From Candidatus Buchananbacteria bacterium RIFCSPHIGHO2_01_FULL_44_11 (lineage in GTDB: Bacteria; Patescibacteriota; Patescibacteriia; Buchananbacterales; UBA6539): a stretch of DNA of 36,066 nucleotides. Shown piece by piece: positions 16,672 to 34,677 of the stretch. The notes under the pieces were generated by a model. The model saw only the letters and a list, made by a program, of their open reading frames with translations. It made no database searches and was not told the DNA's origin. The stretch's first letter is position 1. The number at the start of each line of letters is the position of its first letter. The translations under genes and the position numbers were made by a program. The DNA is taken from the NCBI GenBank assembly GCA_001817345.1, contig MHIE01000008.1:1-36066 (forward strand). Reading direction: 5' to 3'.

Positions 16672-16710
16672 CCGGTAACTTGTAGCTTGTAGTTAAGCTA
16701 TAATTTACTA

Positions 16711-16752
16711 ACAGCTAACAGCTAACAGCTAACAGCTAACAGCTAACAGCTA
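16711..16752. repeat. Six perfect tandem copies of heptamer ACAGCTA
   Basis: Direct count in sequence; ends 4 bp before the ATG at 16757 and follows TATAAT at 16699-16704. Confidence 0.97.
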
Positions 16753-16756
16753 ACTT

Positions 16757-17089
16757 ATGACTGATGAAAAATGGTTGGACATTATCGCCAAAGTTAAAGA
16801 CAGTTTTCAGATTCTAGAGCACCAAACCCAAGATTTGCCGGAAGACTCAGGTCCAGGTTCGGTGGAGTTTATTGTTTTTGAAGGGCCGCTGGGTAAAATG
16901 AAATTAGAGCGGACGACTAAGCCCTTGGTGACTGATAAAAAAACGATTGGTTCTAGGCGAATCGGTAGTGAAACCAAGGTCGCCTATGTCTATTCCGATA
17001 CTGAGAAAGTCAATAAGTTCAAAGCTTACCAATGGGTTAATGACGACTGGTCAGAGATGGCGATGGAGCGCGGTGACATGATTTTTTAA
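16757..17089 (+). CDS. Hypothetical protein, 110 aa
   Basis: ORF in a co-directional cluster. Confidence 0.75.
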   Translation: MTDEKWLDIIAKVKDSFQILEHQTQDLPEDSGPGSVEFIVFEGPLGKMKLERTTKPLVTDKKTIGSRRIGSETKVAYVYSDTEKVNKFKAYQWVNDDWSEMAMERGDMIF

Positions 17090-31224: not shown

Positions 31225-32928
31225 ATGAAAAAAGAAAATTTTTTGTTAATAGCTATCTTGGTCTTGGCTGCGGTTTTACGGCTTTGGAACCTCACCGTAC
31301 CCGATTTAATGACTGATGACGCGGTTTATTCTCTGCGGGCACTGGGCTGGGTTGATTATTTAGCCAGCACCGCCCAAACCACGCCCTTGCAATGGTTTGG
31401 CAGTATACCCACTTGGGCTAATCTCTCTTTTCATGATGCTCCGCCTTTGGTGTTTTTAATCCAGCACCTCTTCTTTTTTATTTTTGGCGATAATCTTCTT
31501 GGCGCTCGGTTGCCTTTTGTTTTTTTCGGCGTCGGCACGGTTTACCTGGTTTATCTATTGGTTAAGTCTTTGAAATCAGCCGCTGCCGGCCTACTGGCCG
31601 CTTTAATTTTAGCCATTTTTTCTTTGCACATCTGGATCAGCCATCTGGGTTTTTTGGAAGGAGTGGAAATATTTTTTATCACCCTGACGGTTTTTTTTCT
31701 GGTCAAATTCAGCCAGACTAAACAAAAAAAGTTTTTGTACCTATTGGCTTTAAGTTTGGGCTTAACGTTTTTAACTAAGTACACGGCCTTTTTCCTTTTG
31801 CCGGTTATTCTGCTCTATTTTTTATTTTTTGAAAAAGGAATTTTTAAAACTAAAGCTTTTTGGTTGTCAGTCTTATTTTTCATTTTGGTTATTTCGCCGG
31901 TGATTATTTACAACTCAATGGTCTTTGCGACCCGCGGTCATTTTGATGCTGCCTTGTCTTCAATGGTCGGTATGCATCCGACGGATTTTCAGAACCTGAT
32001 CAATCGGGCACCCGGCGGCAATCCGCTGATTAATCTTAGTAACTTGATTAAAGAATTATTTTCTTTAGTCTCTTGGCCGATGCTTGGTCTAAGCTTTATT
32101 GCTTTTTTGTTTTTATTAGTCAGGCTGATAGTAAAAAAAGAAATTGATAAAAGAGGCGATATTTTAATTTTAGCCAGTTTCATTCTTTGCCTGGTGTTTT
32201 TAAGCCTCGGTCGTCTTTCCAGTGCTCATTTTTTATCTCTTTTAACGCCCTGGCTAGCGATTATTTTGGCTTTAGCGGTTTTTGGTTTGGTTGATTTTTT
32301 AGCAGTAAAATGGCTTAATTATGCTAAAAAACTAGTAGTGGTATTACTGATTTTAGTTTTAGGCTTTGAGTTGTTTTACGGCATTAACTCGCATTTCTTG
32401 TCACCGTCGCTAAGTTTTAATCCGCTGGTTTATTCAGCGGCTACGCCTCATCTGAATGAAAATTTGGGTTTTAACCAATTGGATCAATATTTACGTCAGA
32501 ATGTTTTCCCTCAAAACTTAGTTTTTTCGCGGTCAATAACAACCGAAGACTATACTTCAAAAATCGCGGAAAATTTTTTTAAGATTAAAACTTTTTATTT
32601 TATTGATGAAGCGGTTCACTGGTTTGCCTATACCTGGTATTTTGCCCATTATCAGCTTTATTACAGTCTGCCCATTGGTTCATTGTACAATGCCTTTAAG
32701 ACGGCGGGAGGTGAGGATCCAATTGCCATGATGCGCCAACAGGGCATTGAGAATTTTTATTTTATTTATCCGGTGTTGGATTCCGCAGTTGACCCAACCA
32801 AAAACAATCAGCCCTCAAGGCAAATCTCCATTGATTTTGCTAAAACCCTGGAAGAGCGCGGCATCCAACCGGTGGAAATAAAAAACCACTCTGGACAGGT
32901 GGCTTTTAAAGTTTATAAATTTAATTAA
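31225..32928 (+). CDS. GT39/ArnT-like membrane glycosyltransferase
   Basis: LTVPDLMTDDAVYSLRALG (acidic DD near N-term), GARLPFVFFGVGTVYLVYLLVKSL, multiple TM helices. Confidence 0.85.
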   Translation: MKKENFLLIAILVLAAVLRLWNLTVPDLMTDDAVYSLRALGWVDYLASTAQTTPLQWFGSIPTWANLSFHDAPPLVFLIQHLFFFIFGDNLLGARLPFVFFGVGTVYLVYLLVKSLKSAAAGLLAALILAIFSLHIWISHLGFLEGVEIFFITLTVFFLVKFSQTKQKKFLYLLALSLGLTFLTKYTAFFLLPVILLYFLFFEKGIFKTKAFWLSVLFFILVISPVIIYNSMVFATRGHFDAALSSMVGMHPTDFQNLINRAPGGNPLINLSNLIKELFSLVSWPMLGLSFIAFLFLLVRLIVKKEIDKRGDILILASFILCLVFLSLGRLSSAHFLSLLTPWLAIILALAVFGLVDFLAVKWLNYAKKLVVVLLILVLGFELFYGINSHFLSPSLSFNPLVYSAATPHLNENLGFNQLDQYLRQNVFPQNLVFSRSITTEDYTSKIAENFFKIKTFYFIDEAVHWFAYTWYFAHYQLYYSLPIGSLYNAFKTAGGEDPIAMMRQQGIENFYFIYPVLDSAVDPTKNNQPSRQISIDFAKTLEERGIQPVEIKNHSGQVAFKVYKFN

Positions 32929-33216
32929 ACCTGGTAGACTTTTTTAGTTTCAGCAATCATCTTTTCTAAATTGAATTTTTCCTTTACCGCCATTGCCGCT
33001 TGGCGACCCAATGCTGCCGCCAAGTTTTTATTTTGGCTTAACTCTAAAATTACTTCAGCTAGTTCTTTGGGTTCGGCTGGCTTAACTAAAAGGCCGGATT
33101 TTTTGTTTTCAATCATCTCCAGTATGCCGCCGACGTTGGTGCTGACCAGGGGCAAACCGGCCGCCATCGCCTCCAAAATTGAATAGGGAAAGCCCTCTTT
33201 GACTGAAGAGCAAATG

Positions 33217-33770
33217 TAGAAATCAAACGCTTTTAAATATCGCCAGGCATTTTGTTTTGAGCCGAGTAATAAAAAGTTTTTTTCCAGCTGCTGATTTTTA
33301 ATTTCCGCTGTCAGTTTGCTTTTGTTTGGTCCATCGCCAATAACGCCAAAAATAATTTTGTCATTTTTTTCACAAACTAATTTTGCCGCTTCAATCAGAT
33401 ATCCCAGGCCTTTAGTGGGGTAAAAATTGGCAATGGTGCCGATTATTAGGTGGTAGCTGGTAGCTGGTAGCTGGTAGGTTGCCAGCAATTCATTTCTGGC
33501 TTGTTCTAGGCTTAAAAAATTAGGCTGAGCGATACCGTTGTGGATAGTAATTAATTTTTCCGTCGGCACGATTCTATTTTTTATGCCGGTACTTCTGTCA
33601 AACTCGGAAACGCAGATTAATTTGTCTTTAAATCGGCCAGAAAATTTTTCCGCGAATTTGTAAGACCATTTTTGCCAGCCAGGCATTGGCTCGTTAAAAA
33701 CAAAGCCGTGAACGGTGTAAATTATTTTTTTGATTCCGGCGGCCCGGCCGGCCAAACTGCCCAAAACGCC
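33217..33770 (+). repeat. Left arm of 554-bp inverted repeat
   Basis: Reverse complement of 33809-34362; paired positions sum to 67579 at both ends, so no net indel. Confidence 0.95.
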
Positions 33771-33808
33771 GGCCTTACTGCTGTTTAGGTGCAGAATATC
33801 CGGTTTAA

Positions 33809-34362
33809 GGCGTTTTGGGCAGTTTGGCCGGCCGGGCCGCCGGAATCAAAAAAATAATTTACACCGTTCACGGCTTTGTTTTTAACGAGCCAATGCCTGG
33901 CTGGCAAAAATGGTCTTACAAATTCGCGGAAAAATTTTCTGGCCGATTTAAAGACAAATTAATCTGCGTTTCCGAGTTTGACAGAAGTACCGGCATAAAA
34001 AATAGAATCGTGCCGACGGAAAAATTAATTACTATCCACAACGGTATCGCTCAGCCTAATTTTTTAAGCCTAGAACAAGCCAGAAATGAATTGCTGGCAA
34101 CCTACCAGCTACCAGCTACCAGCTACCACCTAATAATCGGCACCATTGCCAATTTTTACCCCACTAAAGGCCTGGGATATCTGATTGAAGCGGCAAAATT
34201 AGTTTGTGAAAAAAATGACAAAATTATTTTTGGCGTTATTGGCGATGGACCAAACAAAAGCAAACTGACAGCGGAAATTAAAAATCAGCAGCTGGAAAAA
34301 AACTTTTTATTACTCGGCTCAAAACAAAATGCCTGGCGATATTTAAAAGCGTTTGATTTCTA
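33809..34362 (-). repeat. Right arm of 554-bp inverted repeat
   Basis: Encodes the same 182 aa as the 5' part of the 32925-33764 ORF, on the opposite strand. Confidence 0.95.
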
Positions 34363-34677
34363 GATAAGCCAGCCAGTCTTTCACCGGGTTGATTTCCCGG
34401 ACTAGATGTTTTAGCGGGTAAGTAACTATACTTTTTTCTTTGAGCAGAGAAAACAGCTCCTGGTTACCGCTGGCGGCGACAGCTATCTCGTAGCCTGACT
34501 GCTTTAGATTGGTCGCCAAATCAAAAATATAGCGCTGAGCGCCGCCAATTTCCGACTGGGTGACTAAATATAAAATTTTTGTAATTTGAGGCATTTTTAC
34601 CTTGACTGATAAGCCATTTTATATAATAATAATAGGGTAAAACTTATTAATAATCAAGTTTGGAATTTTGCTAAAAT

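Follow-up and report, generated by a model that had tools for sequence, protein, structure and literature searches.

A perfect 554-bp inverted duplication within a GT4 glycosyltransferase gene of a draft patescibacterial genome: candidate template switch or artefact

How did a long and perfect palindrome come to lie inside a glycosyltransferase gene of a patescibacterium, and did the event take place in a cell or in the making of the assembly? The window, by which we mean the whole stretch of DNA analysed, is a complete contig (C8) of 36,066 bp from the draft genome, 943,148 bp in 30 contigs, of an uncultured bacterium with a tiny genome; this draft is estimated to be 78% complete with 0.35% contamination. 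An earlier note on this contig had described the structure as an inverted duplication made by two template switches, and we followed its claims by full sequence comparison, domain searches and alignment to homologues.

A broken gene and its palindrome

The interrupted gene occupies positions 32925–34594 of the minus strand (start codon at 34594, stop at 32925) and was recognised by its Pfam domains and by intact homologues in relatives. The part encoding the N-terminus matches positions 1–36 of PF13439, a match that falls below the gathering score when taken alone; the C-terminal part carries positions 87–166 of the same domain followed by PF00534 (5.8e-36), so that the two domains stand in the order expected of a GT4 glycosyltransferase. 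The nearest named relatives of the protein come from Candidatus Buchananbacteria and other Patescibacteria. We found a related protein in all 54 relatives searched, and all but one of the best matches from its own family and order are open ORFs roughly 370–400 aa long. Here the palindrome cuts the protein short after about 80 residues, the N-terminal ORF reaching its stop codon, directly after LEIKRF, just within the second arm. The gene sits in a glycan locus, in which a PMT-like neighbour is retained in several relatives and an epimerase in some. Nothing suggests a function for the palindrome itself, and we regard the locus as a broken gene, not as a system.

The two arms (33217–33770 and 33809–34362) were identical as reverse complements at 554 of 554 positions and are separated by a spacer of 38 nt (33771–33808), just as the earlier note had proposed from partial reading; the divergence between arms that would have spoken against it did not appear in the full alignment. 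The boundaries are exact, since the flanking bases and the first pair of spacer bases are mismatched. Arm 1 is the native copy: read on the minus strand it shares the reading frame of the gene's C-terminal part, encodes GSLAGRAAG...AFDF and aligns to homologues. The spacer is also in native orientation (minus strand), encoding KPDILHLNSSKAG, which is conserved in homologues. Arm 2, on the plus strand, is the inverted copy, and consists of about 540 inserted bp (33809–34348) plus a 14-bp repeat shared with the gene. A 6-bp direct repeat, AAACGC, is present on both sides of the insert, and the whole structure lies 1.7 kb from the contig end.

Across the 943-kb genome, this is the only close inverted repeat (within 2 kb) with arms above 34 bp; chance cannot explain its arms, since those of the next one measure 34 bp. 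Close inverted repeats longer than 25 bp were absent from the 1.13 Mb of relatives examined, comprising one entire genome, assembled in 5 contigs totalling 1.01 Mb, and a further 120 kb from a second relative. A single structure in the genome and none in these relatives rules out wholesale chimerism. The palindrome allele was seen in one genome alone: public genomes, with its own records set aside and no congener among them, yielded no copy from the same species, and a search for its exact flank pattern in viral contigs gave no match.

The junctions and the joined allele

Removing 539 bp leaves 1131 bp, that is 376 aa and a stop codon, and the arithmetic of the earlier note was correct on this point. 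Its description of the joined product as a normal GT4 sequence, on the other hand, did not survive alignment. The joined protein reads LEIKRL----KPDILH, whereas at this point the homologues are longer by exactly four residues (e.g., FEIKKLIKTIRPDIVH, FEIKKLAKLIKPDILH and FEIKKLLKNFAPDILH). The four residues were found in all 20 distinct homologues of the family, obtained from 23 aligned loci by setting aside three apparent duplicates; the sole further locus in the alignment encodes a distant Elusimicrobia protein with 28% identity. The homologues, none of them from a congener, are at most about 59% identical to the GT4 protein. Because the four residues are missing relative to every family homologue, the simplest reading of the alignment is that some 12–13 native bp were also lost at the junction, and that the joined sequence would differ from the original allele.

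Two junctions can be placed on the gene. Junction 1 lies within a 14-bp inverted repeat, tagaaatcaaacgc, with one copy in the codons for AFDFY (33217–33230, plus strand) and the other, which contains the junction, in those for LEIKR (34349–34362, minus strand). It is the longest inverted repeat in the joined gene, and its length was reached in only 1 of 300 codon shuffles. The repeat looks native, since EIK(K/R) is encoded at the corresponding position in homologues, which also counters the idea that it arose as a by-product of the copying. Junction 2 (33808–33809, minus strand) is where the return would have occurred and where the four residues, or about 12–13 bp, are absent. Thus, of the microhomologies formerly suggested at the two switch points, the native 14-bp repeat at junction 1 stands, while the “aaacgcc” at the return is unproven, because it was deduced by assuming that no bases had been lost. 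An internally repetitive original containing “aaacgcc” could still account for it.

Template switching in a cell, assembly error or amplification chimera

The anatomy is best fitted by a double template switch: an inverted copy of a nearby segment, undiverged from its source, stands between collinear flanks, the spacer is native, the gene continues on both sides and one junction coincides with the native 14-bp repeat. To this extent the two-switch signature claimed before is borne out. Read on the coding strand, the nascent 3' end would have left its template at LEIKR and run in reverse through about 540 bp of the gene, starting at AFDFY and heading for the spacer; as template it would have used either its own strand, folded back with the 38 nt as loop, or the sister strand. 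Synthesis would then have rejoined the original template at TTAAACCGG, about 13 bp past the point of departure, with loss of those bases; a return this close to the departure is what one local event would predict. On the other strand the same structure would be read as a fold-back with the 38 nt as its loop, after which synthesis returned at the 14-bp repeat. The sequence reads equally well in both directions, and in either one of the two switches would have used the native inverted repeat. We infer the order of the switches, the microhomology at the return and the occurrence in a cell from this anatomy. Such an event would be recent, because the remainder of the reading frame is still open and alignable to homologues, and the single instance in 943 kb goes against wholesale chimerism. 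Reads carrying junction 1 probably exist, since assemblers usually work with k values above 14 bp and the shared word is shorter than that.

Template-switch mutations of the four-point model, and the quasi-palindromes of E. coli and yeast, resemble this locus in the nearby inverted copy, in one switch at a native inverted repeat and in the collinear flanks. Those catalogued in great apes, however, have a median copied length of 12 and a maximum of 128 (PMC7954356), far below the roughly 540 bp copied here, which counts against an origin in a cell. Weighing these points, we put the probability at about 0.4 that the GT4 gene was broken in the cell by a double template switch, a single and recent event of DNA replication. 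An artefact of amplification or of assembly, the two routes taken together, has a slightly better than even chance, and the earlier note was right to leave both mutation and artefact possible.

The first artefact route is through assembly: scaffolding, local assembly or gap filling would have closed a small gap in the gene by wrongly inserting there a second, inverted copy of the adjacent 540 bp. Apart from the arms, the longest exact repeat in the whole assembly, in either orientation, is 106 bp, and the de Bruijn graph built at k of 107, 127, 149 and 251 branches at the four arm ends and nowhere else, and is unresolvable at the palindrome for each of these values. Of 60 contig ends, 24 fall inside an exact repeat of 30–91 bp that recurs elsewhere in the assembly, or no more than 30 bp away from one. 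With so many contig ends at repeats this short, and with no branch points at these k other than the arm ends, one would expect a contig built from short reads to have been broken by a genuine 554-bp repeat, which an ordinary de Bruijn assembly of such reads could cross only with the help of pair information or long reads. The assembly is scaffolded (with N runs of 8–81 bases), and the 12–13 conserved bp missing at the join fit a badly bridged gap.

Precedents exist as well: the passages of PMC7111523 that deal with metagenome-assembled genomes describe local errors that not a single read supports and artificial repetition of stretches hundreds of bp long, which is akin to what we see in this scaffolded draft, although those passages concern repeats in general and not the inverted, microhomology-bounded form found here. 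A literature search on inverted assembly artefacts yielded just one unrelated paper. Against a bridging error, the words shared at the junctions (14 bp and at most 7 bp) are below the usual k, so that a k-mer collision alone would probably not have made the join, and the genome contains no other error of this type. Taken singly, we consider assembly a somewhat improbable source. If the palindrome is an artefact, the locus offers a simple quality check, by which sole k-mer branch points at tested k of at least 107 would mark a suspect, gene-breaking locus.

The second route is a chimera formed in vitro, by multiple displacement amplification (MDA) or another amplification or library step, early enough for the inverted copy to dominate the coverage. 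Among MDA chimeras, 85% are inverted with an intervening deletion, segments less than 10 kb apart are preferred and complementarity extends up to 21 bp (PMC1855051). The inverted join of nearby segments, the 14-bp complementarity and the small deletion at this locus all agree with that description. Unlike a typical chimera, however, the palindrome requires that one molecule switched twice in succession and came back almost exactly, to within about 13 bp, and only one such structure occurs in 943 kb. The smallest contig measures 5,102 bp and, because contigs under 5.1 kb are absent, the genome looks more like a binned metagenome, for which MDA is uncommon, than like a single-cell genome. The objection that short reads would not assemble across arm ends that are the sole branch points holds here too. 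We judge an amplification chimera unlikely.

A programmed or recurrent on-off switch, in which an invertible or removable element would reversibly silence the glycosyltransferase, can be dismissed as highly improbable: glycan-locus genes are often variable and slippage between the AAACGC repeats could excise the insert in frame, but a simple inversion would have flipped the spacer, which keeps its native orientation next to an added arm copy, the protein left by excision at the 6-bp repeat would lack the four residues of all 20 distinct homologues, and a second allele is not known.

The SbcCD background and other repeats

Should the double template switch be real, the palindrome must also have persisted. 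SbcD is the Mre11-type hairpin nuclease. Its profile TIGR00619 scored above cut-off in none of 18 genomes and in 13 of 14 controls; one weak match, below threshold, came from a class-level relative. The SbcD_C domain was absent from all 35 genomes searched (this one and 34 relatives; 28 of the 35 are of high quality), with a probe that was positive in just 6 of 14 controls. For the genome itself the absence is weak evidence, because the genome is incomplete, and the relatives strengthen it. By these profile searches the lineage seems to be without the SbcCD hairpin nuclease. A weak match to SbcC in another contig (C10:19276-20010) was set aside, as the ORF encodes an SMC protein (AAA_23). No paper on SbcCD in the Candidate Phyla Radiation came up in a literature search.

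E. coli without active SbcCD tolerates a 460-bp palindrome (PMC4245961), and Mre11-deficient yeast shows more inverted duplications at inverted repeats of 3–15 bp (PMC10622511). Given these precedents and the undetected SbcD, persistence of the palindrome in a cell is plausible. The yeast fold-back duplications resemble the locus in having short native inverted repeats at the centre of the fold-back, and the lineage studied here has no detectable SbcD/Mre11; in yeast, however, a whole chromosome arm is duplicated and dicentrics form, whereas here synthesis would have gone back to the original template. A broader claim, that the palindrome is a real two-switch inverted insertion of about 540 bp and that lineages lacking SbcCD generate or withstand long fold-back palindromes of a kind eliminated by other bacteria, appears quite improbable to us. 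If the insertion is real, a wild bacterium apparently without SbcCD would carry the fresh trace of a two-switch template switch of very great length, and whether such lineages accumulate palindromes would become testable.

The SMC protein mentioned above (G000:C10:19261-21630) carries about 24 extra residues immediately ahead of the Walker A motif. We considered a mobile in-frame element, and rejected it: a similar insert occurs in a relative (G002, L129) and the sequence is unrepeated in the genome, pointing to a lineage feature.

Our analysis also identified short tandem repeats. Within the GT4 coding sequence, the heptamer TAGCTGG is present in about 4.4 copies at 33447–33477 (with its copy in the other arm at 34102–34132). 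Most homologues have no insert at this site, and in L068, from another family of the order, an imperfect run of the heptamer AGCTATC occupies it. Adding or removing a single unit would shift the reading frame, and the tract could be of the contingency type. Elsewhere in the window, a perfect repeat of CTAACAG (6.7 copies, 16708–16754) ends two bases before the ATG of an ORF at 16757–17089; it is one of few perfect heptamer tracts in the genome. Finally, many dispersed, partly palindromic repeats are scattered genome-wide, in families such as TGTCATTGCGAGG...GAAGCAATC and CCCCTCTTAAATTAAGAGGGG (examples at C14:2329-2496, C2:11591-11705, C9:4957-5154 and C21:28704-28875), and short pieces of them occur in the window at 172–213 and 2870–2920.
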